A stretch of DNA of 64,000 nt, from positions 55,239-119,238 of the IMG/VR virus record IMGVR_UViG_3300025070_000012. One strand, given 5' to 3'. Source of the DNA: a virus. This document shows, piece after piece, positions 9,746 through 60,533 of the stretch. The number at the start of each line of letters is the position of its first letter. Within the stretch, counting starts at the first letter, position 1. The notes below the pieces were generated by a model, which worked only from the letters and a program-made list of their open reading frames with translations, was not told where the DNA came from and did not search any database. Made by a program: the position numbers and the translations under genes.

Positions 9746-9784
9746 TAAAGAAAATAATGCCTAATTCTGGGGAGAGTGAACCGA

Positions 9785-12700: not shown

Positions 12701-15700
12701 GAGAATAGTAAAGCGACATTCTCAATTCCAGTATATGCACCACGTTATTACGATTCACAAAACAATTCATATTACGTAGATCCAGCTTCTACGTCTATCA
12801 TGAACCGTATTGACCTTGATGACTTTATTCGTCACAATGGTGATACAAATACTTACTTTGGATTCAGCGCTGCAGATACTTTCCGTATCTTCACAGGTGG
12901 TTCTCAAAGAGTTAACGTAGACAATAACTCAGTAGACTTCTCAGTTAATGATACTGGTACAAACGCATATCGTAATATCTACTATGACAATAACGACACT
13001 GCATTCTACATTGATGGTAACTCTGAGTCAAGATTGAATACTCTTCGTCTGAGAAAGACAGGAGATCCAGCTAATGACTTTAATGCGCTTTGGATTGATA
13101 ACGGTACTGGTGCAACTGGTGACATTGATACACCTGAGTCTTGGGTTAACTTCCAGTTTGAAGACAGTAATGCAAACTTTAAACCACAAGTTCGTATCGG
13201 TGCGACAACTGGTTACAACGATGGTACTTCTTCAGACACGCAAGACAAAGAAGGTTCTGGTAACTTCATCGTTCAGACTGCAGAAGGTACTGGTGGCGCA
13301 GGCGCAGGTGCACTCGCAACAACATTCTATGTAAACTATCGTGGTGACGCATACGCAAAACGATCTATGAGATCACCGATCTTCTATGATCAAGACAACG
13401 ACAGTTTCTTTGGTAACTTCGCTAGTGAATCTAGAATGGCAACCATCAAACTTGATGATGGTGTGGTTCTAAGATCACCAAATGGTACTTACGGTTCGTT
13501 TGCAATTGATGGACAGGCACGTGGTGGTTGGGAAGGTTTCTCAATCGGTGATCGTTCTGTATTCATGCATGACAATGCAAATAGAACTGGTCTTTTCAAC
13601 GATGTGGATGATCAATGGTTCTTGTACGCTGACAGACAGAACTCATTGCGTTTCATGTACAACGGTGTAGAACAAGCACGTACAGAAAACGGTTACTTCC
13701 TTGCGAATAACCAAATGCATTCACCAATCTATTATGACTCAAATAATACTTCATTCTACTTAGATCCAGCTTCTACATCTATTACAAATACGATGAGGGC
13801 AAATAGATACCAAGTAGAAGGTTCGACATATTACATTGATGTTGCATCAGGAGATTATGGTTCGATTAGAGTTGAAGGTGCGAAGAATGGTTGGGCGGGT
13901 TATGCAATCCGTGACGACTGGGTCTTCATGGCGAATGGGCCATCTGAAGCAGGTATCTACAACGACACCAACAACGAATGGGCAATCAAGTTCTTCCAGA
14001 ACAATCGTGCAGAAATTATGTACAATGGTGGGATTCAGGCACGAACACAGTCAAATCACTTTGACATGATCAATCAGGCACGTGCGCCAATTTACTACGA
14101 TAGAAATAATACTGGTTATTACGGAGACTTTGCATCTCATTCACGTATGAACAGTGTGTCGTTTGGTAACCAAGGTGCGATTGCAAACAGCACTTATGCA
14201 ATGTCTGCATATCACAACAACAGATACTTGTTGGGATTACGTTATAGTGGTGCAAATAGTGACTATCCTTGGATTGTACATGATAACTGGAATGGTTATG
14301 ATGGCACAAATAGATCATCATTCATCATTCACTTTAATGGTGTTGCAGATAGATTCCATTTCGATAGTCAAGGTAACTTCAAAGCAGCTAAATCTGTAAC
14401 TGCACCAGAGATCAACCTCAACGGTGGTAATGGTAACCTCAACCTTTCACCTGCATATGGTTCTGGTGTGGCAGATAGTGTTCTCTTTGATGCTACAGAA
14501 TATTTTGACAAACGAGTTATTAATCCACTTGCACCAAACGAAAATAGTTTAACAACGACTACATCAGAATTTGTTCGTGCAACGACTGGCCCATTTGCAG
14601 GTTCTTACGTTCTACAAACTTCTGCAAATCGTGACTTTTACACTGCATACATGCCTGTTGAACCAGGCGAAGAACTTTACGGTGAAATGTCTGTTCGTCG
14701 TATCTCTGGTTCTGGTGGTGTTGTTTACTATGGTATTGAACGTTATGATCAAAACTTATCACCGATTGCAAGTAACTCAGGTACAACTTACTTCGTAGTA
14801 AGTGGTGCAAACCAAACAAGTACCTCTTGGCAAACATATAGAGGATACACAACAATCCCATCGAACTGTTATTACGTTCGTATTCGTGTATTGATGAACT
14901 ACTCCAGTGGTGGTGCGTTGCGTCAATATGCAGGGATCATGTTGAAACGTTCAAACTATCATGGACGTTTACGTGGTGATGATATCATCGTATCAGGTGA
15001 CGTAACTGCAGATCGTTACTATGACAATAACAACACAGCTTTCTATCTTGATCCGGCATCAACATCTATTCTAAATGATGTTCGTGGTTCGATCTTCTAT
15101 GATCGTGATAACACAAGCTATTATGTGAATCCAGCTTCGACATCACGTATTGCGAACATTGACATTGCACCTACTTTGTCAAATGGTCAAGCACGTATTC
15201 GTTCCATTATGTCAGGAGGTTATCCTGCACTTGAATTTAGTGACAGTGCGCCAGGCAACTCTTCTGGTGATCAACACTTTGTTTGGGGTGCAAATGATGT
15301 AAACGTTGGTCGTATGGAACTTCGATTTAGAGGTGGTACTGCGTTTGGTAGTGCATGGTACAATGAAGGTACAGTTCTTGCCAGCTTTATTGGTGACAAC
15401 AACGCAGTTGAATTCCCACAATCTGCAGGTGTTAGAACACCAATCTTATACGACTACAATAACACATCTTACTATGTAGATCCAGCGTCGACTTCACGTA
15501 TGGTTCATATGCGATTGAGTTCTGGTGATTCGTATTTGAAAATTGGTTCAAACGCTGCAACGCAGACAACACGTGATACTAACAGACCACAGATTGAAAT
15601 TGGTGCAAACAATGCATACCCACACTTCACTCTAAGTTCTTGGGGCACAAACACGACTCACGGTGGTGTTATGTCGTTCCGTTCAAGACTAAACTCTTCG

Positions 15701-18700
15701 AACAACGTTCGTCGTTGGAACATTGGTACTGCAAACTATCAGGCGAACTCTATTCAGATTGGTTACTTCGATAACCAAGAAAACCCACACTACGGTGTTG
15801 GTGTCAACGGATGGACTTATGACAGTTACTCACGTTTTGTAATCTACACAGGTTACTCTGAAGCACGTGGATCTATGCGGGCTCCTATCTTCTATGATGT
15901 GAACAACACTGGATACTACGGTGACTTTGCATCCACTTCACGTATGAATGCTATTAACTATAATAACATCTATGCGATTAGTGGTGGTGTTGCACATTTC
16001 TATACAAGTTCAGGTAGTTTGCGTGGTTACATTCAGGCGACTGAATCAAATGATGCACACCTTAAAATTGCTACATCGGGCGGTGAGGATATTCAATTCC
16101 TTGACGGCGGTCTAGGTGGTCAGTGGAATATGATCATTCGTGGTGATGGTGATGTTCTTACAAATAGAAACCATTATGCACAAATTTTCTATGACAGAAA
16201 TAACTCAGGTTATTACCTTAACCCGAATGGTACGTCTCGTCTGGGTACAGTTCGTGTTGATAGAATCGACATGGCTGATCGTGGTGACTTCATCACATTC
16301 TATGGAGACGATTCAACATATCACAGTATTTCATCTAGAGATAATGGTGGTGGTGTAACTGATGATTTGAGATTCAACTCTTATCACGATATCTTCTTTA
16401 ACCTAGACTCGAACAATAATAACAGTTCTGGTACAACAGGTTTCTATGTTGGTCAACACGGTGCTGCCACTGGTAGTATCGCAGGTTGGTACTTCCAAGC
16501 AATGGCAGATGGTAACTCTTACGCATCAAGTTCATTCAGAGCACCGATCTTCTATGACAGAAATAACACAGGTTACTATGCAGACCCTGCGTCAACCTCA
16601 CGCTTTAACACACTACGTACCAACAGACTGTATACAGGTTATGATAGTAGTACTGACGATTACCTAGATTACCCAACAAGCGATTATGGTTCGGTACAGG
16701 TTAACGGTGGCGGTAAGAATGGTTGGGAAGGTTACAACATTGCTGGCCGTTACAACTTCATGTCTGCAGATAATAACCAAGTTGGTATCTACAACGATAT
16801 TGACAATGAGTGGATGTGGTATGGTGAACGTAATGGTCGCACATACTTCTACTACAATGGTCGTTGGGAAGCACGTACAGATTCTGGATACTTCCGTGCA
16901 GAACGTCAAATGCGAGCACCAATTTATTATGACTTGAATAACACAGGTTATTACGGTGATTTTGCTGGCACATCTGTATTCAACACTGTTAACTTTAACG
17001 GTAAGGCCTTCTTTAAAGCACGTCAAAACGACTCTGCAGGGTCTCACTCTTCATATGACGTTACAGGTACTGACTATCTAAACAACGTTGCCGCAGAATT
17101 CTGGTCAGGTAACGATGCACCTGTAACAATCTACTTCCGTTCTGGTGTCAACGCACCATCTGATCACGGTTACATCACGTTTGACCCAGACTTCAACAAC
17201 ACTGGTGAAAACGCTGCAATGGTCATCGGTGTTGACAACGATGGTACAGGATCTTCTGACTACATCCGACTACAAGGTCGTGTAGAACTTCACTCAAACC
17301 TTTCTTCTTCTGATAACTCAGAGATGCAGGGTTGGTGGTATCAGACTACAAAGTATGCTCGTCTAAACACAGACTACTTTGACCACATTTCTGATATTCG
17401 TTCGCCTATCTTCTACGATAGGAACAATACTGGGTATTATGCAGACCCTGCATCGACTTCACGTTTCAATACTCTGCGTACAAACCGTTTGTATTTTGCG
17501 TATGACAATGACACAGACGTATATTTTGACTATCCAACAGGTAACTATGGTTCAGTACAGGTTAACGGTAGTGGACGAGGTGATTGGGAAGGTTATTCGA
17601 TCAGAGGTGAATACGTCTTCATGTCTGCAGATAGTGGTCAGGTTGGTATTTACAATGATGTCGATAATGAGTGGATGTTGTATGCAAATAGAAACTCACA
17701 CCTCTATCAGTACTATAATGGACGTTGGGAAACACGTACAGAAAATGGTTGGTTCAGAGTTGAACGTTCTTCACGTTCTCCAATCTTCTATGATCTAAAC
17801 AACACTGGTTATTACTTTAACGGTGCCTCAACTTCACGTTCTAACTATCATAGACTTAACAACGCCTATGACTCTCAGGAACGTCGATTCTTTGCACCAG
17901 ATGGTGGTACATATACTACTTCATCTTCAAGTGTCAATGGTGCATGTACTATTTACTTGCCAACTAACAGACGTGGTGGTAACACCATGTTGCACTTCAC
18001 TGTTAATATCTACGAATACAATACTGGTCGTATGACTCAGTTTAGAATTGGTGGTTATGCATATTCAAGTGGTCGTTGGACAAACGTTTCTGCAACACAA
18101 ATCAGTGATTCAGATGACGCACCATATATTGTAAGGTTCTGTGATGACGGTTCTCGTCATATGGTTTGTATTGGTTCAACAGGTGACAACTGGACATATC
18201 CACAGGTTCAAGTTGTTGATGTTCACACTGGTTATAGTAGTTTCTCTACAAACTGGGGTTCTGGTTGGTCAGTTGGTTTCCGTACAACTAACTATGGTAC
18301 TCAGCGTACAACTCGTACTGCATCTTATATGTTGGGTACAAACAATAGAACTAATTGGAACACAGATCTTCGTGCGACAATCTTCTATGATAGAAACAAC
18401 ACTGCTTACTATGTAGATCCAGCGTCGACTTCTCGTCTCGCAAACATCACTGCGAACTTCATTCAGTGGGACAATGGATTTGACATCTATGATGATGATG
18501 CTGACACTATCAGTCTTCGTTCCAACAACTCTGACCACGGTGAACTTATCTTTAGAGATAGTAACTCTACCGCTTGTGGACGTATCTACTGGGATGACGA
18601 TGGACAACACTTTGGTTTGAAACATGCGAACAATGAATGGGCAGTTTACATGTATGAGAACTCTTATACCTACCTATACTATAATGGTAGATGGGAGGCT

Positions 18701-19627
18701 CGTGCAGACTCAGGTTACTGGCGTGCAGAGAGATCATCACGTGCACCTCTGTTCTATGATCTGAACAGTACTGCATACTATGTGAACCCTGCGTCTGATA
18801 CATCAATGAGACTCAACGGTGGTATTCACTTTGGTGCAACTAACGCAGAATCACGTGGTGGTTTCATTGGTCGTCACGGTTCTAACTCTGGTGGTCTAAA
18901 CACAGATAGATATCCATCGCCTGGTTACTCTATTGGTTACAACTATCGCCCATCTGGTACAGGTTTGTCAAACCACTATGGTTATGGTTACGCACATACT
19001 AACTCACCATTCTTTAGTTTGTCTGGTCAGTCTGGTTGGGGTTTCTATGTTTCTGCAGACGGTGACGCTCGTGTTCAGTTGTCTGGTTCAAACGGTGCAG
19101 TCTCTGCGACTGGTAACATTGTTGCATATGCATCTGATGGCCGTTTGAAAGAAAACGTAACACCTATCACTGCAGCACTCGAAAAACTACATAAGATTCG
19201 TGGTGTTGAGTACGACTGGGTAGAAAACATTAAAGAGGAGTATGACTTCCACCCGACTAAGATGCACGAAGTTGGTGTTATCGCACAAGAGGTTGAAGAA
19301 GTACTTCCAGAAGTAGTCAACGAAGCACCTTTCAATGCCAATTACAATATGCAGAAAGCACGTATTGCATATAAAGAGTTCCTTGAGGAACGTGATGATA
19401 AAGAATGGGATAAGAAAGAGGCTAAAGAAGAGTTCGAAAAACTTACGTTTGATGAACAAAGAGAACTGGCTGCGGTACATGATCAACAGTACCTCACAGT
19501 CGATTATGAACGAATCACTTCACTACTGATCGAAGCGGTCAAAGAAGTTGATAATAAATATAAGGAAGAAGTCTCTTCTTTGCGTAATGAGATCGCAGAA
19601 CTCAAAAAGTTGATTTTGAATAAATAA
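9785..19627 (+). CDS. Giant tail fibre with C-terminal S74 intramolecular chaperone domain (3280 aa)
   Basis: ATG at 9785 is preferred over an in-frame GTG at 9776 because GGGGAGAG lies about 8 bases before it. Residues ~460-560 are a dense V-T-A-x-x-D/N repeat. About 18 copies of a module like APIFYDRNNTGYYADPASTS follow, spaced through residues ~600-3010. A second ~70-residue module (YGS-V-NG..GWEGY...GIYNDVDNEW...YYNGRWEART) recurs about five times from ~13480 on. The last ~170 residues carry a Peptidase_S74/endosialidase chaperone domain: SDGRLKEN near residue 3116 with the Ser-Lys pair used for self-cleavage, then VGVIAQEVEEVLPEVV and a C-terminal coiled coil. In this family the domain trimerises the fibre and is then released. 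Confidence 0.92.
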   Translation: MANDKKFIVKNGLETEGDVLIGGVTDDGISKLQTEGAVKFTATFPSYPTLHVINNTGTADSPIVEFEGPSGALSIRNIDTNDFGIFNGTQAAGSGIEFHQGGAGNGELILKRAGSEVLSFSNGNTSFTGLSTTNIEGRRIITTDDQASQGGSFDAATLDGLDSTQFVRSDENDTMDGSYIITGNLTVQGVTTSINSEVVTIADNILQLNSNVTGAPTENSGIEIVRGTSDNVSLIWNETSDWWSVGTYSFESDEIRSTDGSDLSLRAASSSSANVNITAGFGSNYIGLKSVFTGSEGYGEVLYGNDAKLQAVTDGILIGENLDVNGDITVGDNSNAAQINFDGVGINRTIYSNNGEIGFLKGNLNYGAYLNTNEDWIVAGNNEVQGNIVSEGDITAKDDIFADGDITSNNNITATNGNITASAGAVTAQTSVTAITGNVTAAAGNVTAGNDVTAANDVTALAGDVTAGQDVIATRDITAGRNAAITGDLTANNAYITNDLTADDIISQTINANSAIIGDITANNITADQDIRSGRFVDNDDDTYYFDGDKTTVANTIGIDTELFHNGDTDTKLRFETDQVDFYAGSNTPKLRVENTKVTSVEIHAPLYYDSDDTNYYLNPAASSVLSNIYIDDYILHNGDADTYFGFSADDQFRVTTGNNLGFLVTNSVVRAYNEMRAPSFKGELGGTTNFLDFESNTSGAASLAVSGVIQVGNTSDYDRMDDTTGTGGVTINPAGGIQVAQSGVTGTEANKPSLGLNRISMGFNPFAASNRFITFAATATNGQHVAGDSAGNLNFIPDQDTTAIKFWNSSADNVFTINHGGDVVVGGETASYASSDATASVGAINANKLHVQGSIQLNRDDDAIVLGRSTSGFLKNNELKFGLGGGFYQAAAATITVHGGKDLATTGDMYAGRFYDDDDNNYYIDAAGDSQLNTIDIDDSIRHRGDLTTLIGFPNADQFEVKTNNVQRLLVENSKATFSIPVYAPRYYDSQNNSYYVDPASTSIMNRIDLDDFIRHNGDTNTYFGFSAADTFRIFTGGSQRVNVDNNSVDFSVNDTGTNAYRNIYYDNNDTAFYIDGNSESRLNTLRLRKTGDPANDFNALWIDNGTGATGDIDTPESWVNFQFEDSNANFKPQVRIGATTGYNDGTSSDTQDKEGSGNFIVQTAEGTGGAGAGALATTFYVNYRGDAYAKRSMRSPIFYDQDNDSFFGNFASESRMATIKLDDGVVLRSPNGTYGSFAIDGQARGGWEGFSIGDRSVFMHDNANRTGLFNDVDDQWFLYADRQNSLRFMYNGVEQARTENGYFLANNQMHSPIYYDSNNTSFYLDPASTSITNTMRANRYQVEGSTYYIDVASGDYGSIRVEGAKNGWAGYAIRDDWVFMANGPSEAGIYNDTNNEWAIKFFQNNRAEIMYNGGIQARTQSNHFDMINQARAPIYYDRNNTGYYGDFASHSRMNSVSFGNQGAIANSTYAMSAYHNNRYLLGLRYSGANSDYPWIVHDNWNGYDGTNRSSFIIHFNGVADRFHFDSQGNFKAAKSVTAPEINLNGGNGNLNLSPAYGSGVADSVLFDATEYFDKRVINPLAPNENSLTTTTSEFVRATTGPFAGSYVLQTSANRDFYTAYMPVEPGEELYGEMSVRRISGSGGVVYYGIERYDQNLSPIASNSGTTYFVVSGANQTSTSWQTYRGYTTIPSNCYYVRIRVLMNYSSGGALRQYAGIMLKRSNYHGRLRGDDIIVSGDVTADRYYDNNNTAFYLDPASTSILNDVRGSIFYDRDNTSYYVNPASTSRIANIDIAPTLSNGQARIRSIMSGGYPALEFSDSAPGNSSGDQHFVWGANDVNVGRMELRFRGGTAFGSAWYNEGTVLASFIGDNNAVEFPQSAGVRTPILYDYNNTSYYVDPASTSRMVHMRLSSGDSYLKIGSNAATQTTRDTNRPQIEIGANNAYPHFTLSSWGTNTTHGGVMSFRSRLNSSNNVRRWNIGTANYQANSIQIGYFDNQENPHYGVGVNGWTYDSYSRFVIYTGYSEARGSMRAPIFYDVNNTGYYGDFASTSRMNAINYNNIYAISGGVAHFYTSSGSLRGYIQATESNDAHLKIATSGGEDIQFLDGGLGGQWNMIIRGDGDVLTNRNHYAQIFYDRNNSGYYLNPNGTSRLGTVRVDRIDMADRGDFITFYGDDSTYHSISSRDNGGGVTDDLRFNSYHDIFFNLDSNNNNSSGTTGFYVGQHGAATGSIAGWYFQAMADGNSYASSSFRAPIFYDRNNTGYYADPASTSRFNTLRTNRLYTGYDSSTDDYLDYPTSDYGSVQVNGGGKNGWEGYNIAGRYNFMSADNNQVGIYNDIDNEWMWYGERNGRTYFYYNGRWEARTDSGYFRAERQMRAPIYYDLNNTGYYGDFAGTSVFNTVNFNGKAFFKARQNDSAGSHSSYDVTGTDYLNNVAAEFWSGNDAPVTIYFRSGVNAPSDHGYITFDPDFNNTGENAAMVIGVDNDGTGSSDYIRLQGRVELHSNLSSSDNSEMQGWWYQTTKYARLNTDYFDHISDIRSPIFYDRNNTGYYADPASTSRFNTLRTNRLYFAYDNDTDVYFDYPTGNYGSVQVNGSGRGDWEGYSIRGEYVFMSADSGQVGIYNDVDNEWMLYANRNSHLYQYYNGRWETRTENGWFRVERSSRSPIFYDLNNTGYYFNGASTSRSNYHRLNNAYDSQERRFFAPDGGTYTTSSSSVNGACTIYLPTNRRGGNTMLHFTVNIYEYNTGRMTQFRIGGYAYSSGRWTNVSATQISDSDDAPYIVRFCDDGSRHMVCIGSTGDNWTYPQVQVVDVHTGYSSFSTNWGSGWSVGFRTTNYGTQRTTRTASYMLGTNNRTNWNTDLRATIFYDRNNTAYYVDPASTSRLANITANFIQWDNGFDIYDDDADTISLRSNNSDHGELIFRDSNSTACGRIYWDDDGQHFGLKHANNEWAVYMYENSYTYLYYNGRWEARADSGYWRAERSSRAPLFYDLNSTAYYVNPASDTSMRLNGGIHFGATNAESRGGFIGRHGSNSGGLNTDRYPSPGYSIGYNYRPSGTGLSNHYGYGYAHTNSPFFSLSGQSGWGFYVSADGDARVQLSGSNGAVSATGNIVAYASDGRLKENVTPITAALEKLHKIRGVEYDWVENIKEEYDFHPTKMHEVGVIAQEVEEVLPEVVNEAPFNANYNMQKARIAYKEFLEERDDKEWDKKEAKEEFEKLTFDEQRELAAVHDQQYLTVDYERITSLLIEAVKEVDNKYKEEVSSLRNEIAELKKLILNK

Positions 19628-35258: not shown

Positions 35259-35266
35259 TATAAATA
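35259..35266 (+). promoter_or_regulatory. T4-type late promoter TATAAATA
   Basis: Exact TATAAATA preceded by a T-run in the 67-bp gap before the major capsid gene, 36 bp from its ATG. Confidence 0.78.
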
Positions 35267-35302: not shown

Positions 35303-36631
35303 ATGACACAGTCAAACTATCAAAAACTTGTGGAAAAGTGGGGCCCAATCCTTGAGCACGAATCTTTTTCACCAATTGCAGATCAACACCGTAAAAGTGT
35401 AACTGCAACCATCCTTGAAAACACAGAGTCAGCTCTGCGCCAAGAGGGTGACGCTTCAGCAAACATGACTGCACTTCTTTCAGAAGCGCCTGCAAACGAT
35501 GTAGGTACTGATGGCGGATTTACAGGTGCGGCAACAGACGCAGGGCCAGGAGCAGGTTACGATCCAGTACTTGTATCTTTGATCAGACGTTCTATGCCAA
35601 ACTTGATTGCATATGACATTGCTGGTGTACAGCCAATGACAGGCCCAACTGGTCTGATCTTCGCAATGCGTTCACGTGAGACATCTCAGTCAGGTACTGA
35701 GGTATTCCACGGTGAAGCAGACACTACCTTCGCAGGTGCAGGTGCAGAAGCCGGTTCAACTGGTGGTGCAGTTCCTAACACTTCAATCTTCGACACTGGT
35801 ACTGGTATGACCACTGCCGCTGGTGAAGCATTGGGTGACGGCAACGGAACCAACTTTGCAGAGATGGCGTTCTCAATTGAGAAAGTAACAGTCGCTGCGA
35901 AAACACGTGCGTTGAAAGCGGAATACACCACTGAACTCGCACAGGATCTTAAAGCAGTTCACGGTCTCGACGCAGAGACAGAACTTGCGAACATCTTGCA
36001 GTCAGAAATTCTGACTGAAATCAACCGTGAAGTTGTACGTACAATCTACGGTACTGCTGTTGCAGGTGCTGCGGCAACTGCTGCTGCTGGTATCTTCGAT
36101 CTTGACGTTGACGCAAACGGACGTTGGTCAGTCGAGAAGTTCAAAGGTCTGATGTTCCAAATCGAACAGGAAGCAAACGCAATTGCAACTGCTACACGCA
36201 GAGGTAAAGGTAACATTGTGATCTGTTCTTCAGACGTTGCATCTGCTCTGCAGATGGCAGGTGTACTTGATTACACTCCTGCTCTTAACAGCAACTCACT
36301 GGAAGTTGACACAACTGGTAACACATTCGCTGGTGTTCTTAACGGACGTTACAGAGTGTACATTGATCCATATGCTGGTTCAAACTACATGGTTGTTGGA
36401 TACAAAGGTTCATCTGCATTCGATGCAGGTCTGTTCTACTGCCCATACGTACCACTACAGATGGTTCGTGCCGTGGGTGAGAACTCATTCCAGCCAAAAA
36501 TCGGGTTCAAAACTCGTTACGGTATGGTATCGAACCCATTCGCAGACGGTACTTCTGCTGCAACACAGGGTGCTCTTACACAGAACACCAACCAGTACTA
36601 CAGAAGAGTTCGCATCAGCAACTTGTTCTGA
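35303..36631 (+). CDS. 23: Major capsid protein gp23-like
   Basis: 442 residues (T4 gp23 is 521; marine homologues are shorter). Characteristic segments are VSLIRRSMPNLIAYDIAGVQ, PMTGPTGLIFAMRSRE, AKTRALKAEYTTELAQDLKA and a C-terminal VRISNLF. A likely gp21 cleavage site is LLSE|APAN at E61, matching the L-x-E rule and close to T4 Glu65. Ribosome-binding site AAGGAGA. It is the last gene of the structural run and is followed by a strong terminator. Confidence 0.97.
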   Translation: MTQSNYQKLVEKWGPILEHESFSPIADQHRKSVTATILENTESALRQEGDASANMTALLSEAPANDVGTDGGFTGAATDAGPGAGYDPVLVSLIRRSMPNLIAYDIAGVQPMTGPTGLIFAMRSRETSQSGTEVFHGEADTTFAGAGAEAGSTGGAVPNTSIFDTGTGMTTAAGEALGDGNGTNFAEMAFSIEKVTVAAKTRALKAEYTTELAQDLKAVHGLDAETELANILQSEILTEINREVVRTIYGTAVAGAAATAAAGIFDLDVDANGRWSVEKFKGLMFQIEQEANAIATATRRGKGNIVICSSDVASALQMAGVLDYTPALNSNSLEVDTTGNTFAGVLNGRYRVYIDPYAGSNYMVVGYKGSSAFDAGLFYCPYVPLQMVRAVGENSFQPKIGFKTRYGMVSNPFADGTSAATQGALTQNTNQYYRRVRISNLF

Positions 36632-36646
36632 TCCAAATAAAAAGAA

Positions 36647-36710
36647 GGGCGGATATAACCGCCCCACTTTACTACCAGAATTGGGGAGATCTTCGGATCT
36701 CCCTTTTTTT
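36647..36710 (+). terminator. Double-hairpin Rho-independent terminator after gp23
   Basis: The first hairpin is GGGCGG-ATATAA-CCGCCC (36647-36664). The second is GGGAGATC-TTCG-GATCTCCC (36684-36703), a perfect 8-bp stem with a UUCG tetraloop, followed by seven T (36704-36710). It ends plus-strand late transcription facing the convergent minus-strand block, whose last gene stops at 36709. Confidence 0.93.
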
Positions 36711-37283: not shown

Positions 37284-37700
37284 TTATAGATCAGCCAATA
37301 ATGCCTTTAGTTTCTTTTTTGATTTACCCTTTACTTTAGCTTTTGAGATATCGTTATCTCCATCACCCACAACTACAATGGCAATCATACCCATTGACTT
37401 GTGTGGTGAACACTGATACAAGTAAACGCCTGGCGTGTCAAATGTAATTGCCACTTCTTTATTAAGTTTTGATTTCTTTGGTGCATCCCATCCATCTGGG
37501 CCAGCAATGAATTCTACATTGTGTCCTTTTGAAGTTGGAACCCACGTGATTGTATCACCTACATCAATACGTGCGATATCTTCACTGTATACCATCTTTG
37601 CACCATCGTCACGTTTATTCAACATTTCAATAGTCATATCTTCAGCGTATGCTGATGTTGCGAAAAGTGCCATAAGACTAGCAGTAATTAGATTTTTCAT
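37284..37700 (-). CDS. Pseudoazurin (periplasmic type-1 blue copper protein)
   Basis: 138 residues. Signal peptide 1-19 (MKNLITASLMALFATSAYA|ED). The mature part has the pseudoazurin fold signature: VGDTITWVPTSKGHNVEF with H60, then YLYQCSPHKSMGM with C97, H100 and M105. After signal removal these become 41, 78, 81 and 86, almost the classical pseudoazurin numbering (40, 78, 81, 86). The Lys-rich C-terminal helices (AKVKGKSKKKLKALLADL) also fit the family. Pseudoazurins carry electrons from the bc1 complex to periplasmic reductases and oxidases. AGGAAA ribosome-binding site. It is next to an oxidase-IV-like gene and small membrane proteins in an early-type operon, so probably a host-metabolism gene. 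Confidence 0.92.
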   Translation of the reverse strand: MKNLITASLMALFATSAYAEDMTIEMLNKRDDGAKMVYSEDIARIDVGDTITWVPTSKGHNVEFIAGPDGWDAPKKSKLNKEVAITFDTPGVYLYQCSPHKSMGMIAIVVVGDGDNDISKAKVKGKSKKKLKALLADL

Positions 37701-37714
37701 TTTGTTTCCTATCT

Positions 37715-37921
37715 TTATTTCTTTACATTAAGATTGGACGGATTATATTGTTCGCCATTATAGGCAGGATAGGTGTCGTCCTCTACCCCAAAGTTACACG
37801 ATGCCACAATCAATAAGAATGCGATTGAGGCATAGGTAGTTCTTTTAGACCATAATATAAAACCTTCAAATGTTTTCTCCGCTTCTTTCTGAGCGGCTGC
37901 ACGTACTTCATCATCGGTCAT
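37715..37921 (-). CDS. Small membrane protein resembling aa3-type cytochrome c oxidase subunit IV
   Basis: 68 residues. Residues 11-22 (QKEAEKTFEGFI) followed by a Trp and one membrane helix (~29-45) match the short bacterial aa3 oxidase subunit IV family of alphaproteobacteria (Pfam COX4_pro_2; typical QEKTF-GFI then a helix). The C-terminal periplasmic tail of ~25 residues (VEDDTYPAYNGEQYNPS) is extra compared with the ~45-residue host proteins. Its ATG overlaps the upstream TGA and it lies 14 bp before pseudoazurin. The match rests on a short motif, so it could be another single-pass protein, but context supports it. Confidence 0.5.
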   Translation of the reverse strand: MTDDEVRAAAQKEAEKTFEGFILWSKRTTYASIAFLLIVASCNFGVEDDTYPAYNGEQYNPSNLNVKK

Positions 37922-38097
37922 AGTGATCTCGTTCCATAATAAGATCGATAGACTTCTGCGAGTTCTTGTTGGTCAGTAGACTCTTGAACTACGTAGTCGG
38001 TTTTATCAATTCTTGTTCCATCTGCAATTGCAATAGCATCTTCATATCGTGATGCGATTGCAATAATTTCACCAGATTTTTTTCTAACGATATGCAT
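37918..38097 (-). CDS. Hypothetical 59-aa protein
   Basis: The ATG in TAATG overlapping the upstream stop is chosen over an in-frame TTG 18 bp earlier. Begins MHIVRKKSGEIIAIASRYED; contains IADGTRIDKTDYVV. Soluble, with an alternating beta-alpha pattern. Function unknown. Coupled to both neighbours. Confidence 0.65.
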   Translation of the reverse strand: MHIVRKKSGEIIAIASRYEDAIAIADGTRIDKTDYVVQESTDQQELAEVYRSYYGTRSL

Positions 38098-38267
38098 TAG
38101 TTCAGACCAAAGCAAGGTAAGATGTTGACATTGCAGTAACGTCCATATTCTTCAAGTCCTACCATTGCCATTAACATTAATACTGGTACAACAGCAATCA
38201 TTAAAACAACAACTAAGAATGCCCAACCCAAACCTTTGGTTGTGCAATAGTTTGTTTGTTCACTCAT
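38097..38267 (-). CDS. Small single-pass membrane protein, 56 aa
   Basis: The ATG at 38267 lies inside the end of the upstream gene, after GGTGGCGAG. An upstream in-frame start at 38291 is also possible. Residues 1-12 are polar (MSEQTNYCTTKG), followed by a long hydrophobic helix (WAFLVVVLMIAVVPVLMLMA) and a short tail with two Cys. Part of the cluster of small membrane proteins next to pseudoazurin. Function unknown. Confidence 0.65.
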   Translation of the reverse strand: MSEQTNYCTTKGLGWAFLVVVLMIAVVPVLMLMAMVGLEEYGRYCNVNILPCFGLN

Positions 38268-38631
38268 GCTCGCCACCGTTTGCTCGTCCATTATATTTAC
38301 GGCCTGATTTCAAAATGTTGTTGAGTGATTCTGGATTGTTTTCTGCTTGACGGAATGTTATAACAGTAATTGTAATACCACTGATAAGCAGTAAGTGAAA
38401 GGCCGCACTGATACCAAACGCAAGATAACTTCCTACCATCAGGGCAAAGATACCACTCCAGATAAAGAATAGACACTGAAAGATCATGTGTCCTACCATA
38501 GGGTCTAGATTACGTAGTGGTGACTTTTCTATTGTCATGACGCTGTCCCACATATCACGTGGAATACTTGCAATTTCAGTTAGTGTGGTTGCCCATCCAA
38601 TGGGTCTCTGTGTGTTCTGTTTTTTTGACAT
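38260..38631 (-). CDS. Two-pass membrane protein
   Basis: 123 residues. Basic N-terminus (MSKKQNTQRPIG), then two hydrophobic helices (~48-70, MIFQCLFFIWSGIFALMVG; ~72-92, ISAAFHLLLISGITITVI) and a polar basic tail. No recognised family. It lies between GapR and the single-pass protein, in the same operon as pseudoazurin. Confidence 0.72.
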   Translation of the reverse strand: MSKKQNTQRPIGWATTLTEIASIPRDMWDSVMTIEKSPLRNLDPMVGHMIFQCLFFIWSGIFALMVGSYLAFGISAAFHLLLISGITITVITFRQAENNPESLNNILKSGRKYNGRANGGEHE

Positions 38632-38633
38632 GA

Positions 38634-38882
38634 TTACATTCCTATTGCTTTCATATATGTTTCCAACAACGCCTCTTCATTAGCGATGTCATCTGCATCA
38701 CGTTTCCTTAGTGATACAATTTTTTTGAGGATCTTAGGTTCGTATCCTCGTGCCTTTGCTTCTTCGCATACAGATTTTACATCTCCACGAAGATCAAGTA
38801 ACTGTTCATCTAAACGTTCGAGACGTTCGATGAAAGACATGACTTCTGCCTCAGCACTATCGAAGTCTTGTTCATCACTCAT
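38634..38882 (-). CDS. gapR: GapR/DUF2312 family nucleoid-associated protein
   Basis: 82 residues from the ATG at 38882 (an in-frame GTG lies 9 bp upstream). The pattern FIERLERLDEQLLDLRGDVK, then EEAKARGYEPKILKKIVSLR, KRDADD and EEALLETYMKAIGM, matches the alphaproteobacterial DUF2312/GapR family along its whole length. Cellular GapR clamps overtwisted DNA ahead of forks and RNA polymerase and stimulates type II topoisomerases. A phage copy may help replication or transcription or reshape the host nucleoid. Its start overlaps the upstream stop. Confidence 0.85.
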   Translation of the reverse strand: MSDEQDFDSAEAEVMSFIERLERLDEQLLDLRGDVKSVCEEAKARGYEPKILKKIVSLRKRDADDIANEEALLETYMKAIGM

Positions 38883-39135
38883 CGTCTTCACGCTCTTCCA
38901 TTTCCCACATTTCAGATTCGTGAGAGTTGATTAGATTACTGAATCCAATTTGGAATGGTGAGTATTCATTCAGTTCATGATCACGGAAGTTTTCAATTTC
39001 ACGGATCTGTTCTTCGGTAATTTCAGTGATCTCTGAAACACCATAATGTTCAAACACATATTCATAAACCGTATCAGTAACTTCCGATTCAATGCGTTCT
39101 TCCCATTTATAAATTCGAGGCCATTCAAACGACAT
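38875..39135 (-). CDS. Hypothetical acidic protein
   Basis: 86 residues, rich in Glu and aromatic residues (SFEWPRIYKWEERIE, HESEMWEMEEREDDE). No membrane segment. It overlaps the sulfotransferase end by 11 bp and the GapR start by 8 bp. Function unknown. Confidence 0.7.
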   Translation of the reverse strand: MSFEWPRIYKWEERIESEVTDTVYEYVFEHYGVSEITEITEEQIREIENFRDHELNEYSPFQIGFSNLINSHESEMWEMEEREDDE

Positions 39136-40558: not shown

Positions 40559-40816
40559 TCAATCAAATTCTGGTGGGACGTTCTTATCTATTAGATTTCC
40601 CCGAGCAGTTTCATATTCTTTAGTGGGATGTTCTTCTTTCTTTCGAATTACCAAACCATTTGTGCCATATTCTACCACAAGAGTATCACCAATGTCAAGC
40701 CCTAAAGATTCCATTATTATAGGTGGAAGTTTCATAATGACATTGTCGGGATCACCTTCGATTTCTTCGAAGAGATCCTCTGCCTTTATAGTACCCACTT
40801 CAGCTGGTTTGACCAT
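40559..40816 (-). CDS. AbrB/SpoVT/MazE-like DNA-binding protein
   Basis: 85 residues. The core NVIMKLPPIIMESLGLDIGD followed by TLVVEYGTNGLVIRKK is the swapped-hairpin AbrB pattern (beta-P-x-x-L-x-L-x-x-G-D-beta) of MazE-type antitoxins and transition regulators. No toxin partner lies next to it, so it is more likely a phage transcription regulator than half of a toxin-antitoxin pair. Its start overlaps the upstream gene by 17 bp. Confidence 0.7.
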   Translation of the reverse strand: MVKPAEVGTIKAEDLFEEIEGDPDNVIMKLPPIIMESLGLDIGDTLVVEYGTNGLVIRKKEEHPTKEYETARGNLIDKNVPPEFD

Positions 40817-42061: not shown

Positions 42062-42090
42062 ATTCTACGACATTTTAGAGGCAATGTCAA
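42062..42090 (-). promoter_or_regulatory. Sigma70-type (early) promoter TTGACA-17-TAGAAT
   Basis: On the minus strand TTGACA (42090-42085), 17-bp spacer, TAGAAT (42067-42062). Upstream is an A/T-rich tract with AATTAATTT repeats like an UP element. Predicted start of transcription of the operon down to 36709. Confidence 0.85.
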
Positions 42091-42721: not shown

Positions 42722-42749
42722 AATATACACGTTTTTCTGGGAATGTCAA
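42722..42749 (-). promoter_or_regulatory. Sigma70-type (early) promoter TTGACA-16-TATATT
   Basis: On the minus strand GGGCTTGACATT with 16-bp spacer and TATATT. Upstream A/T tract as in the other minus-strand promoters. Drives 42690-42115. Confidence 0.8.
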
Positions 42750-43034: not shown

Positions 43035-43062
43035 AATATAATCATTTTTTCAAGAATGTCAA
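43035..43062 (-). promoter_or_regulatory. Sigma70-type (early) promoter TTGACA-16-TATATT
   Basis: On the minus strand GGGCTTGACATT, 16-bp spacer, TATATT, then a leader GTGTAAGTT...GAAAGAGAG shared with promoter 49678-49706. Confidence 0.82.
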
Positions 43063-55256: not shown

Positions 55257-58200
55257 TTAAGTTGTAGTCATTGTTCCTGATCCATATACTGTCCAACCAT
55301 TAATTAAGTTAGTGCATAGGTAATTGGTAGTGTCTGGCCCACCTATTACCGTAACATATACTTTATTGTCATTAGTTCTAGTATACCCTGAGTAATATTG
55401 ACCTGATCCAAGAGAGTCTGCCTCTCTAACAAAGTTAAAGTTTACGGTGTGACCCTCATCTGTAACACCTGCGGCAGTGTTTGTAAATGGAAGTCCACCA
55501 ATATTGATATTTCCAGATCCACCAGATACCGAAGTTAATTTTATATAAAATCTATAATGAACCAAGTTTCCGATTTTAGTATATCTACCACCAGTGCCGG
55601 CGTTATATGTAATTGTTGGATCACTGATAGTACCTAAAATAGTAGGAGTCCATTCGCCCTCTTCATAGTCATTTAAGATGTTACTTGTTGCGCTACCAGT
55701 ACCACCGGCATCGCCAAAGACCACACCATCAGTTAAGTGGATTTCTTTAAATGCAGAACCAGTGGAACCTAAGTTTAGGTATCCAGAAGCACCTGATGTT
55801 GTTGCACCTGCAGGGAGTGTAGGCACAATTGCCGCCTGAGTCGATTCACCATCAAATCTTATTCTTGGATCTGAATTAGTACCTTCTGATCCCATGTATA
55901 GATATTTACCTTGGTTGAGTCCAATCAGTGCCTTATCAACTCCAGCATCTGCCAACCTAAGTCTATTTCTATTATCAATTGTAACATCGCCATCAACATC
56001 AATTCCATCAGGACTTACTTCGAGCATATCAGTAAGAGTTCCTGCCTTTTGTACGGCATGAACTATCTTTGCATCCTCTGTCCCACTAGTGACATCTACT
56101 GCTGATACAGTTACTCTTGCATATTCTTCATGATCGAAAGTAGTTGTGTTTTGACCTGTTCTATAACTCGTCTGCGAAATGATCGTGTTATCAGTTGCGT
56201 TATAGTTTTGGTTTGTAATAATTGTTGTAACAGGAGTATCATCATTTGAAATTGATGTGCCACCAAACATGTAAACAAGTCCACCAAGACCTGTGGCACT
56301 ACCGCCTGTATTATCTACACTTACTCTAAAATCTGGGCCGCCGAATGGATCCCATCTTGCTGAACCTAAAGAGTGTTGTCCACCGTCACGGAGAATACCC
56401 ATTCCATGTACAACTTCTTCTGCGTGACCTGCAGGGATATATCTGTTTGCCCCTGCAGTACCATTTAAGGCATCTGTCCAATTAAAGAAAGCAAGAGAAC
56501 CAATCTGTGCGCTACTTGGCACAAGATCAGCATTACCAGAAGAACCACCATTGAAACCACCGAAGTCACTTCTTTCAGTTATGTATTCAGTATTTGCATA
56601 ACTACCAAACTTGTGTAAGACATTTTCGTCTGTTAATTCATCTCTTACTTTTTGACCGCCGTCATAATCTGTCCAGACATCATACGAACTAATAGATCCA
56701 CCTGTTGCTTTATAGTTAATAGAAAGCATTGACGTTTGAGATGGAATCATAATCAATTCTGTATATTCGTCATCATTAACACGATCTGTAACACGATACC
56801 TAGCAATATTATTTTGATGAGACAATGAAACACGGTCTTTATAATTACCCAAACCATCTAATGCAGTTAATTTCAAACCTGAAATATTAGCATCACTGGT
56901 AATGTCTGCAGTATCATCAACTGTTTCATAAATTCTAAGTGAGTTTTCCATCCATACAGGAAGGTTTTCAAAGTGTGTAGCATATGTGGTTGAAGTCGGG
57001 TTGCCTCCAGCAGGTGTGTCACCTATTTTTAATGCTGGAGTTAGTGTTGTGTTAACCGTTACACCAAATACCATTTGTCCAACGTCTACACCACCAGTGT
57101 AATTATTCGAATGTTTGTTTGCACTGAGTCTTGCCATTTCACCAAGAGTACTGGTGATTGGATCTGTATCAGTATCGGCATACCATTGGATGTCACCTAT
57201 TGCCTGACCAAGAGTTGGCGTAGTATCTCTAGTTTCAAACTTCAGAGTACCTTCGCTGATATTACCATCAGTACCTCTGTAAAGTGTTAGAGGGTTGTTC
57301 GTCTCATCACCCGCTCCCATTACAGCATCTAATGTTGGTATCGTTGTGGCGCCAAGTTCTGTAAAATTACTACCATCGTTAGTGAATTCCCAACGATCAA
57401 ACCCTTCATGCCAACGAATACTTACGTTCGCCAAAGAACCACGTTCTACTTCTAAGTAAGACCAGTTGGTACTTGAAGAAGAAGGCGAACCTGTCTGACC
57501 GTAGTTGAGAGTAATCTTACCACCATCACTCGCACCACCCGCTACATCTAGATTACCATTTACGGTAATACCTGCCGTAGAGGTATTTCCTCTATTGGTT
57601 ACATCTGCCAGAGTGTCTGTATATGAAGTCAGATAACTACTTAAATCTGGTGGAGTGTAAGTAAACACACCAGTTGTATTGTCATAAGATAGATCTGCAG
57701 TACCTGCAGTTGCAGTTGATGCACTCAAGTCTGTTAATGCGATACCACCACCGCCGCCACCTGACTGTGCGATCCATGCATAATCTGCACCATCCCAAGA
57801 AAGAACATATCCAGTTGTTGGGTTTGATTGATTTAAATGCGTATCTATAAGAGAGTCTATCGTACCGTTTACGAACACAGATTGTCCCGAATCCCAAAGC
57901 AGGGTTTCGTTATCTGCAAGACCAGAAATTGATACATCTCCTAGATCATCAAGGTTTGCGACTGTAGAAGTACTGTAAGTGTTTGCATCATAGTACCACT
58001 CACCGCCATAGTTTCTCAAGAAACCATCTGTACTTGATCCGGCTGCCACAACGTTTGCAACTGCAGAAGCACCAAAGACTGGATCTGTCTCAGATCCACC
58101 GCCTCCGCTTAGTCCAGAAAGATCTGGTGGAGTGAATACAAATGTACCGTTAGAACTAGAGTAACTTAGTGAACCGTTTCCACTTGGTGTTGGATCGTCA

Positions 58201-60533
58201 ATCGCAGTAAGATCGTTTAATTCAATTCCAGTAGACACAAGGTTTGCAGAGAACACACCAGTTGTGTTATCATAGGTTACGTCACCAGTTGCACTTAGAT
58301 CTTCTAAGGTGATGAATGATGCACCGTTTGACAAAAGTGCATTGTTCGAACCTTCCAACATGACGTTAACACCGCCGACTGTCGCCGCACCAACTTCAAT
58401 TGAGTTAGTTGTGGAACTACCGTTCGTGGTAACATCGTCTAGAGTAAGTGAAGATGCAGGGATGTCATTCGCTGTAATGTAAGTATTTGCATCCCAATAC
58501 CAGTTGTTCGCACTGTCTTGTCTTAGGAAACCTTCACCATCTACAATGTCAGACGTTGTATGCGCATCGAAGATTGGATCTAGTTCAGCTGATAGGTAAG
58601 TAGCGTTATCATATGACCATGTTCCCCCACCATCGTTCTTCAACAATCCAAGACCATTAGCGATATTGTATGTGGTATGCGCAGTGAAAACAGGATCTGT
58701 TTCAGAACCTGCAGATGTTACATATGTGTTGGAGTCATAAAACCAGTTACCCGCTCCGTCTTGTTTTAGGAAACCAGAACCGTTGTTGATGCTTGATGTA
58801 GTATGCGCACTAAAGATTGGATCAGTCTCGTTGTCTGGAACATCTGAACCTTGAATGTATGTGTTTGAATCATAATACCAAGAGTTTGCAGTTCCCAAGT
58901 TTCCAAGTAGACCTGTGCCTTGAACAATGTCATATGTTGTATGCGCAGTAAAGACTGGATCTGTTTCTACAGCCGTACTTGTGATATAAGTGTTCGAATC
59001 GTAGAACCAGTTACCTGCACCATCTTGTGCAAGAAAACCACTGCCGTTGTTGATGTTTGCAGTAGTATGTGCACTAAAGACTGGATCAGTTTCAGTTAGA
59101 AGATATGCCTGTAAGTCAGTGATTTGACTTTCTGTAATACGAAGATCTGATTGGTGTTGTACGACACTTGTATTAGAAATGTATGCATCTGGTACAATGT
59201 CCCAAGTAACAATAGATGATAGATCATTTGATTCTGCACCAGCGTTAATAGTAATGTATGTAAGACCAGTTGCTTGTGCATTTACTGCGACAACTTGGTT
59301 CTGTGCACCACTATAGTTGTTTGGTGTATCAGATAGTCCTACGAATGTGGTTGTACCACCACCACCGCCTGATACGGTCTGAAAACTAAAGTTTCCGTTT
59401 CCATCTGTTTGAAGGTATTGTCCAGCTGAACCATCGTTGATATTGTTACTATTAGAATTTGTTAAATCAAGAAGACCTGCAACAATGCCTGCATCAGTAA
59501 GAGTTGTGGGTGTATTAGTGAGACTATTCCAGTCACCATCGAAAGTTGAATAATCTGTACCCGAAACTGCAGCAGATATATTACCACTACCATCCGCCTT
59601 AACAATACCAGTGATTGCACCTACGACTGGATCTGTCTCAGATCCACCACCACCGCCTGCCGCAATCCACTGGAAGTCGATACCTGTCCAAGAAAGAACT
59701 TGTCCAGTTGTCGCACTTAATGTGTTGAGGTGGGAAGAAACATCAGAGTCTCCATAAGATCCTGTAACTGTTAAGTCACCAGCGCCAAGAACAGAAACAC
59801 CATTGATTGTTTTGATTGAAGAACCAGATACGAGAGTTGTCTGACCATCTGTAATACCATAACCAGACAAGGTTGTAGGAGTGCCTGTCAAAGAAGACCA
59901 CGCACCATCGAATGCATCGATAATACCAAAACCCGATATTGTGTTTGGTTTGTTTGTGATGGACGACCAATCTGTAGAGGCAGTAAGTGAAATATCACCA
60001 GAACCCATAAGAGAGTTGCCGTTAACAGTCTTGATATTTGTACCAGACACAAGAAGTGGTTGTGCATCTGTAATACCGTAACCTGACACTGTAGTAGGTG
60101 TACCAGTCAAGGAACTATATGCAAAGTCTTGTGAGAATGACGCAGCGATAGTAAGAGTATCAGTCGATGCGTTTGTTGTCAGAGTGATGTTCGAACCTGC
60201 GGCGAAGTTGATAGTGTCAGTTGAACTATCCGCATCAATATTGGTTTGACCAGATACTGAGAAAGTACTGAATGCGTTTTGGTTTACTTCACCACCGCCT
60301 CCGCCTCCGCCAGCGAGTGCACCCCAAGAAGTGGTGTATCCTTCAAACTGGTTGAGTTGGTTATTGTACCTCAGATAACCTGCTGCTGGCGAACTGTCAC
60401 GTTCTGCAGTAGTCCCTGCAGGGATTTGAATAGATCCAGTAGAACTGGTGCGAGGGGCAATCTGCTCGAGGTTGTCATCCATCTCTTGATACGTGAGGGA
60501 TGAACCTTTTGTAATTCGTTTTGTAATCGCCAT
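55257..60533 (-). CDS. Large tail fibre/adhesin (1758 aa)
   Basis: N-terminus MAITKRITKGSSLTYQEMDDN then AGTTAERDSSPAAGYLRYNN, a short form often seen on marine phage structural proteins. The middle has repeats of ETDPVFSAHTTANINNGSGF...GNWFYDSNTY (about six copies, nt ~58480-59100), several Gly-runs and TLSGYGITDGQ-type turns. The C-terminal ~140 residues include NDYEEGEWTPTILG and a beta-rich tip, typical of receptor-binding ends. It has a different tip from the S74 fibre at 9785. It lies on the minus strand behind PAAR and other small genes; GGAG ribosome-binding site. Confidence 0.88.
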   Translation of the reverse strand: MAITKRITKGSSLTYQEMDDNLEQIAPRTSSTGSIQIPAGTTAERDSSPAAGYLRYNNQLNQFEGYTTSWGALAGGGGGGGEVNQNAFSTFSVSGQTNIDADSSTDTINFAAGSNITLTTNASTDTLTIAASFSQDFAYSSLTGTPTTVSGYGITDAQPLLVSGTNIKTVNGNSLMGSGDISLTASTDWSSITNKPNTISGFGIIDAFDGAWSSLTGTPTTLSGYGITDGQTTLVSGSSIKTINGVSVLGAGDLTVTGSYGDSDVSSHLNTLSATTGQVLSWTGIDFQWIAAGGGGGSETDPVVGAITGIVKADGSGNISAAVSGTDYSTFDGDWNSLTNTPTTLTDAGIVAGLLDLTNSNSNNINDGSAGQYLQTDGNGNFSFQTVSGGGGGTTTFVGLSDTPNNYSGAQNQVVAVNAQATGLTYITINAGAESNDLSSIVTWDIVPDAYISNTSVVQHQSDLRITESQITDLQAYLLTETDPVFSAHTTANINNGSGFLAQDGAGNWFYDSNTYITSTAVETDPVFTAHTTYDIVQGTGLLGNLGTANSWYYDSNTYIQGSDVPDNETDPIFSAHTTSSINNGSGFLKQDGAGNWFYDSNTYVTSAGSETDPVFTAHTTYNIANGLGLLKNDGGGTWSYDNATYLSAELDPIFDAHTTSDIVDGEGFLRQDSANNWYWDANTYITANDIPASSLTLDDVTTNGSSTTNSIEVGAATVGGVNVMLEGSNNALLSNGASFITLEDLSATGDVTYDNTTGVFSANLVSTGIELNDLTAIDDPTPSGNGSLSYSSSNGTFVFTPPDLSGLSGGGGSETDPVFGASAVANVVAAGSSTDGFLRNYGGEWYYDANTYSTSTVANLDDLGDVSISGLADNETLLWDSGQSVFVNGTIDSLIDTHLNQSNPTTGYVLSWDGADYAWIAQSGGGGGGIALTDLSASTATAGTADLSYDNTTGVFTYTPPDLSSYLTSYTDTLADVTNRGNTSTAGITVNGNLDVAGGASDGGKITLNYGQTGSPSSSSTNWSYLEVERGSLANVSIRWHEGFDRWEFTNDGSNFTELGATTIPTLDAVMGAGDETNNPLTLYRGTDGNISEGTLKFETRDTTPTLGQAIGDIQWYADTDTDPITSTLGEMARLSANKHSNNYTGGVDVGQMVFGVTVNTTLTPALKIGDTPAGGNPTSTTYATHFENLPVWMENSLRIYETVDDTADITSDANISGLKLTALDGLGNYKDRVSLSHQNNIARYRVTDRVNDDEYTELIMIPSQTSMLSINYKATGGSISSYDVWTDYDGGQKVRDELTDENVLHKFGSYANTEYITERSDFGGFNGGSSGNADLVPSSAQIGSLAFFNWTDALNGTAGANRYIPAGHAEEVVHGMGILRDGGQHSLGSARWDPFGGPDFRVSVDNTGGSATGLGGLVYMFGGTSISNDDTPVTTIITNQNYNATDNTIISQTSYRTGQNTTTFDHEEYARVTVSAVDVTSGTEDAKIVHAVQKAGTLTDMLEVSPDGIDVDGDVTIDNRNRLRLADAGVDKALIGLNQGKYLYMGSEGTNSDPRIRFDGESTQAAIVPTLPAGATTSGASGYLNLGSTGSAFKEIHLTDGVVFGDAGGTGSATSNILNDYEEGEWTPTILGTISDPTITYNAGTGGRYTKIGNLVHYRFYIKLTSVSGGSGNINIGGLPFTNTAAGVTDEGHTVNFNFVREADSLGSGQYYSGYTRTNDNKVYVTVIGGPDTTNYLCTNLINGWTVYGSGTMTTT

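Follow-up and report, generated by a model that had tools for sequence, protein, structure and literature searches.

Genomic context of the pseudoazurin gene

The analyzed window, a stretch of 64,000 nucleotides, is part of an IMG/VR virus record of 119,238 bases (IMGVR_UViG_3300025070_000012); the GC content is ~41%. An earlier note on this DNA had assigned it to a T4-type phage, and this is borne out by the major capsid protein gp23 (1.5e-146), the tail sheath protein gp18, the portal protein gp20 and a TerL-like terminase, all of which are encoded within the window. Based on gp23 and the terminase, the phiM12-group phages of Sinorhizobium (65% and 58-59%) and the marine Methylophilales phage Melnitz come closest among isolated phages. 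No tRNA genes were found, so that no host could be assigned on this basis.

Close to gp23, the minus strand carries a pseudoazurin gene together with several small genes that recur beside pseudoazurin or beside each other in further viral contigs and are referred to as the cassette in the following (Table 1). The same region encodes a GapR-like DNA-binding protein (38634-38891, minus strand; PF10073, 2.8e-24); nucleoid proteins of this kind are typical of Alphaproteobacteria, and here one is phage-encoded. Elsewhere in the record (L333:12888-14448) are genes for an Hsp20-like protein and for two small proteins of the DUF1127 type, and such genes are seen again close to the cassette in further viral contigs. 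The window also includes three very long ORFs at 3668-9745 (2025 aa), 9776-19627 (3283 aa) and 55257-60533 (1758 aa).

Table 1. Coordinates of the pseudoazurin gene, its cassette and flanking features in the window.
Feature	Position	Strand	Basis or remark
T4-type major capsid protein gp23	35303..36631	+	profile match; late-promoter-like TATAAATA before it, 35259-35266
Terminator-like hairpins	36646..36704	both	separate gp23 from where the minus-strand block ends
Pseudoazurin gene, 138 aa	37284..37700	-	Pfam, NCBIfam, PDB search, AlphaFold2 model
Predicted signal peptide, residues 1-19	37644..37700	-	cleavage after A-Y-A; read from sequence
Copper ligand M105 codon	37386..37388	-	invariant in both alignments of relatives
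Copper ligand H100 codon	37401..37403	-	invariant in both alignments of relatives
Copper ligand C97 codon	37410..37412	-	invariant in both alignments of relatives
Copper ligand H60 codon	37521..37523	-	invariant in both alignments of relatives
68-aa single-TM protein, aa3 cytochrome c oxidase subunit IV homolog (PF07835)	37715..37921	-	Pfam, profile-profile comparison
Small conserved cassette protein, 59-65 aa	37918..38115	-	in 96/215 viral loci
Small membrane protein with three invariant Cys, cassette member	38097..38291	-	likelier start 38267 (MSEQTNYC...)
Two-helix membrane protein, 123 aa, cassette member	38260..38631	-	recurrence across viral loci
Near-consensus sigma-70-type promoter, 11/12	40669..40698	-	upstream of the cassette block; consensus match only
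Near-consensus sigma-70-type promoter, 11/12	42062..42090	-	consensus match only
Near-consensus sigma-70-type promoter, 11/12	42722..42749	-	consensus match only
Near-consensus sigma-70-type promoter, 11/12	43035..43062	-	consensus match only

Identity and copper site of the phage-encoded pseudoazurin

The 138-aa ORF and the positions of H60, C97, H100 and M105 described in the earlier note were confirmed, and the type-1 copper ligands H, C, H and M are thus all present in the C-x2-H-x4-M spacing. In profile searches, the protein matched Pfam Copper-bind (3.2e-16) and the NCBIfam pseudoazurin model TIGR02375 (9.4e-31, 106 bits, missing the equivalog cut-off of 109.85 by ~4 bits), compared to 4.4e-12 for amicyanin and 7e-9 for plastocyanin; its 36 bits for the plastocyanin model TIGR02656 (cut-off 87.85) place it outside that family. 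A phmmer search against the PDB returned pseudoazurins first (to 4e-25), and every one of the top 22 sequences was a pseudoazurin or a blue copper protein of the pseudoazurin type. No non-copper family ranked on top in any of these searches.

An AlphaFold2 model, computed with viral and bacterial relatives as input, reached a mean pLDDT of 87 and values >90 across most of the mature domain. At the level of the fold, it agrees with the proposed copper protein: all 27 top Foldseek matches in the PDB were pseudoazurins, the best with an rmsd of 1.2 A. The N-terminus reads MKNLITASLMALFATSAYA, with ED following the predicted cleavage site, and looks like a canonical, cleavable form of the signal peptide that the earlier note had recognized; the translation continues as EDMTIEMLNKRDDGAKMVY...KGHNVEF...YQCSPHKSMGMIAIVVVG.... 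Low model confidence for residues 1-19 and relaxed selection in this part (dN/dS 0.43, see below) also fit a signal peptide. The Lys-rich C-terminal helices of the earlier note were recovered in part, since the model predicts one Lys-rich helix (126-137) rather than the pair typical of solved pseudoazurins. Some phage relatives have longer C-terminal tails; the one-helix C-terminus looks like variation within the family, in which the helix pair is not needed for copper binding.

With solved bacterial pseudoazurins (TIGR02375; PDB 1bqk, 3tu6, 1paz, 1adw), the protein shares its predicted fold, a predicted signal peptide, the H-C-H-M site and its spacing at ~36-45% identity. It differs from them in being phage-encoded, in its shortened C-terminal part with one predicted helix and in scoring just below the equivalog cut-off. 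Searches and model together make it near certain that the ORF encodes a pseudoazurin, and its product, with a complete ligand set and a predicted periplasmic location, is probably a genuine type-1 copper pseudoazurin.

Viral distribution, selection and bacterial origin

Scanning IMG/VR revealed at least 336 contigs encoding relatives of the window pseudoazurin, the best 80 of which show 72-100% identity to it. Both ligand motifs are intact in all 39 distinct viral relatives of the first set. In the mature domain, the median dN/dS was 0.10, compared to 0.43 in the signal peptide (2,058 pairs from 77 distinct genes), these values being approximate at a median dS of ~1.1. After masking the cassette, 67 long loci fell into 15 nucleotide-level backbone groups, and the pseudoazurin gene therefore spans more than one phage lineage. 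Using tblastn, no pseudoazurin was detected at 1e-5 in 50,697 GenBank phage records, and at E<=1 cyanophages gave the only matches, with plastocyanins among the matches listed. Likewise, a structure search among predicted viral proteins returned no close pseudoazurin. We found no report of a viral pseudoazurin or cupredoxin auxiliary metabolic gene in the literature, in which subscription journals were thinly covered, so that novelty in print is provisional. The gene is a viral auxiliary metabolic gene, i.e. a cell-derived metabolic gene that is carried by a viral genome and conserved under selection.

Among the best GTDB matches are genes on the chromosomes of marine Rhodobacteraceae, MED-G08 and Ascidiaceihabitans, with 68-72% identity to the window protein. 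Chromosomal pseudoazurins are up to 74% identical to other viral copies and are flanked by ordinary bacterial genes. Two further candidates (L084, L089) were rejected as bacterial copies because they have phage-like neighbours within MAGs; L084 is a phage-like pseudoazurin contig in the MAG Muricauda sp. TMED12 (Flavobacteriaceae, Bacteroidota), probably by binning error. Of the 249 genomes that were sampled from the family around the Ascidiaceihabitans genome, 72 had a match of any kind.

The alphaproteobacterial affinity suggested earlier was upheld by the phylogeny, in which viral and Rhodobacterales-type pseudoazurins form one clade of 50 rows (support 94/95). Rhodobiaceae/Rhizobiales types come next, Pelagibacter lies further out and OCS116 types also stand apart from the viral clade. 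The tree is compatible with one or with a few transfers into viruses. Taken jointly with the respiratory role discussed below, we consider it fairly probable that the gene was acquired from marine Rhodobacteraceae-like Alphaproteobacteria, and the phage host would presumably be an alphaproteobacterium as well.

An aa3 oxidase subunit-IV-like gene and a recurrent cassette

The immediate upstream neighbour of the pseudoazurin gene, on the same strand, and the recurrent cassette had not figured in the earlier note. The neighbour's product matches PF07835 with 25.9 bits (gathering cut-off 22); the match is weaker in diverged homologs, and 13 of 14 diverse homologs hit this model at E<=0.1 among 24,736 models. 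A profile built from the homologs retrieved four chains from the whole PDB, three of them cytochrome c oxidase (CcO) subunit IV, each insignificant alone (E 0.44-1.3). Profile-profile comparison with chromosomal alphaproteobacterial CcO subunit IV gave a probability of 96.5% (P=7.7e-10) and covered the pre-helix motif and the helix. By these comparisons, the neighbour is homologous to subunit IV of the alphaproteobacterial aa3 cytochrome c oxidase. It has the size class, the single TM helix and the TFxGF-type motif before the helix in common with the bacterial subunit (COX4_pro_2, PF07835; PDB 1qle_D, 7ate_D), to which it is related at profile level. The phage version differs by an extra conserved Cys, ~25 residues after the helix and its location beside pseudoazurin. 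This Cys42 is invariant and its surroundings resemble a lipobox (V-[ATV]-[SG]-C), so that the protein, which also has a conserved tail, could be a lipoprotein.

Of the 74 loci that could be evaluated, 58 have the subunit-IV-like gene within 1.5 kb of pseudoazurin, always co-directional with it. The loci were fetched with cassette genes as queries, which biases raw counts, and counts per group from pseudoazurin-seeded loci are fairer; the pair was found in 12 of the 15 otherwise dissimilar backbone groups. Pseudoazurin phages of the other three groups lack the subunit-IV-like gene, and the converse case was also seen. As each gene occurs without the other in some phages, the two are not obligate partners.

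Among the other members of the cassette, homology searches with the three-Cys membrane protein gave insignificant matches only. The two-helix membrane protein, which ends in a GGEHE-like sequence, has a His and a Trp that are invariant, and neither a profile nor a model search gave a meaningful PDB match. Its relatives occur in the marine T4-like phages Melnitz and C48C1 and in 6 of 150 Rhodobacteraceae genomes/chromosomes. We considered this protein as a dedicated partner of pseudoazurin and rejected the idea, as the copies in Melnitz and C48C1 adjoin no recognisable respiratory gene; by its distribution, it appears to be a broader marine T4-like phage protein. In most other pseudoazurin phages, a DoxX-family membrane protein gene (PF07681) is a further recurrent partner, and 113 of its 116 viral loci also hold pseudoazurin. 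Examples beside viral pseudoazurin are L072:9352-9765, L084:6420-6818 and L220:4585-4998. No DoxX gene was found in the 119 kb of the window phage, whose record may be a fragment.

Further genes were observed in other viral contigs. Four viral loci that show no pseudoazurin within the stretch examined have a ferredoxin gene (Fer4/DUF3470) close to the subunit-IV-like gene (e.g. L197:6774-7112), and a substrate-binding protein of a Bmp/PnrA-like ABC transporter (2.6e-42) is encoded in one cassette contig (L206:40-864).

Putative promoters and proposed timing of expression

The whole record contains 26 near-consensus sigma-70-type promoters, compared to ~7 expected, and four of them lie on the cassette strand between 40669 and 43062. 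Thirteen of the 15 late-promoter-like TATAAATA motifs in the record are located on the strand opposite to the cassette, and those within the window mostly stand directly before structural genes. Sigma-70-like promoters on the cassette strand and late motifs on the opposite one suggest that the cassette is transcribed early, by a host-type polymerase, and separated from gp23 by the hairpins. Over the whole record (window plus L333-L335), the late motif TATAAATA and the early-type promoter TTGACA-17-TATAAT are both enriched, largely on separate strands and blocks.

Potential electron acceptors and possible role in host respiration

The earlier note had named nitrite or N2O reductases among the possible targets of the carrier. 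Eight genomes, comprising the closest pseudoazurin carriers and comparison genomes, were searched for CtaD (aa3 subunit I), CcoN, NirK and NosZ. CtaD was present in 6/8, and no CcoN, NirK or NosZ scored above cut-off, absences that are provisional since the genomes are partial MAGs/SAGs. The aa3 subunit IV was found in 6 of 10 bacterial genomes tested. A role with nitrite or N2O reductase is thus not supported, and denitrification is less likely than the aa3 oxidase on present evidence.

The best reading, and a reasonably probable one, is that T4-like phages carry a small module for respiration, made up of pseudoazurin, the subunit-IV-like protein and small membrane proteins, which feeds the aa3 oxidase of the host. 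Observed are the protein identity, the intact ligands, purifying selection, the neighbour's relationship by homology with CcO subunit IV and the recurrent co-directional linkage. Host gene expression would fall early in infection, and the replacement of c-type cytochromes would require both heme and the Ccm maturation system. A carrier made by the phage would require just export and copper, and would be simpler to assemble than a c-type cytochrome. Pseudoazurin could then carry electrons from the bc1 complex, its presumed donor, to the host aa3 oxidase, its presumed acceptor. The subunit-IV-like protein, possibly in physical contact with the oxidase, may join or stabilise it or may dock pseudoazurin. 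Proton-motive force and ATP supply would thereby be sustained until lysis. This marine T4-like phage thus probably keeps or redirects host respiration during replication, and such a redirection, as the earlier note had envisaged, would fit this scheme. More tentatively, and as something we regard as possible rather than probable, T4-like phages of marine heterotrophic Alphaproteobacteria may share a widespread takeover module, comprising pseudoazurin, the phage version of subunit IV, the accessory DoxX and the small membrane proteins, that places phage parts in the terminal oxidase and makes its electron supply independent of cytochrome c.

Several other explanations have to be weighed against the module feeding the aa3 oxidase. 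Pseudoazurin may be a true electron carrier that serves NirK/NosZ or a cbb3 oxidase and aids replication at low oxygen: it is established that pseudoazurins known from experiments pass electrons on to NirK and NosZ (cited in PMC12816887), and the location of pseudoazurin within a nirK-cbb3 region in some SAR11 genomes (PMC12816887) also counts in favour of this. However, the bacterial genomes whose pseudoazurins come closest contained no NirK, NosZ or CcoN above cut-off, and the phage gene linked to pseudoazurin is similar to a subunit of aa3 and not of cbb3, which leaves this explanation rather unlikely. The protein could also be a periplasmic copper binder or redox buffer, acting in copper homeostasis or oxidative-stress protection, and not a respiratory link, as any cupredoxin binds copper and as genes for Hsp20-like proteins, in keeping with stress functions, are often close by. 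We regard this as quite improbable, given that the whole pseudoazurin fold and site are conserved, beyond copper binding alone, and that the recurrent partner is an oxidase-subunit homolog.

The remaining objections concern the neighbour and the origin of the DNA. The product of 37715-37921 may be a small phage lipoprotein or membrane protein with a superficial likeness to CcO subunit IV, the linkage reflecting a shared variable region; its invariant Cys in the lipobox-like context, a weak match of one homolog to Pfam Phage_lipoprotein (0.092) and the individually insignificant PDB matches are in line with this. That 13 of 14 homologs select PF07835 and that the profile-profile match is strong speak against it, and lipidation and subunit IV homology are compatible, so that we judge this reading unlikely. 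A functionless passenger, whether recently gained bacterial DNA or contig contamination, has bacterial ancestry alone in its favour and is already contradicted by the evidence: the gene sits in a block adjoining gp23 and has relatives in hundreds of viral contigs, and a dN/dS of 0.10 at a median dS of ~1.1 and the occurrence in 15 distinct backbone groups make the passenger reading hardly credible.

Comparison with other phage-encoded metabolic systems

To our knowledge, there is ample documentation of phages controlling the electron transport of their hosts in photosynthesis but hardly any for aerobic respiration in heterotrophs. A conserved module of pseudoazurin and an oxidase subunit, if true, would be the respiratory counterpart of this control and would render testable how lytic phages maintain energy supply in abundant marine Alphaproteobacteria. 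We know of no established function of the aa3 oxidase subunit IV, an enigmatic protein for which the module may reveal a role.

The analogy to cyanophage plastocyanin drawn in the earlier note gained ground from gene order, as in Synechococcus phage S-CAM1 the plastocyanin gene petE lies beside ptoX, which encodes a terminal oxidase, and here pseudoazurin adjoins the aa3 subunit-IV-like gene. Both phages are T4-like, and the predicted exported blue copper carrier of the window phage has, like plastocyanin in S-CAM1, an oxidase-related neighbour gene. Cyanophage PetE (phrog_515), however, belongs to a different cupredoxin family with ~30% identity to the window protein (E 0.02 or weaker) and acts in a photosynthetic host, and PTOX is a complete quinol oxidase whereas the neighbour in the window is a small CcO-subunit-like protein. 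By this analogy, the phage module may best be read as the heterotroph counterpart of cyanophage plastocyanin and PTOX.

Phage genes for tetrapyrrole and heme synthesis (e.g. viral alaS, PMC11480375) likewise represent aquatic phages supporting respiratory cofactors of their hosts; PMC11480375 concerns tetrapyrrole enzymes, not electron carriers, and its text contains neither 'azurin' nor 'plastocyanin'. This theme is shared by seven loci in which hemF, hemC and hemE lie beside the subunit-IV-like gene, with no pseudoazurin within the stretch examined, and this adjacency ties the subunit-IV-like gene independently to heme-based respiration. In these marine viral contigs (L210:6130-8811, L211-L216), hemF, hemC and hemE are contiguous and follow the subunit-IV-like and DUF1127-type genes.
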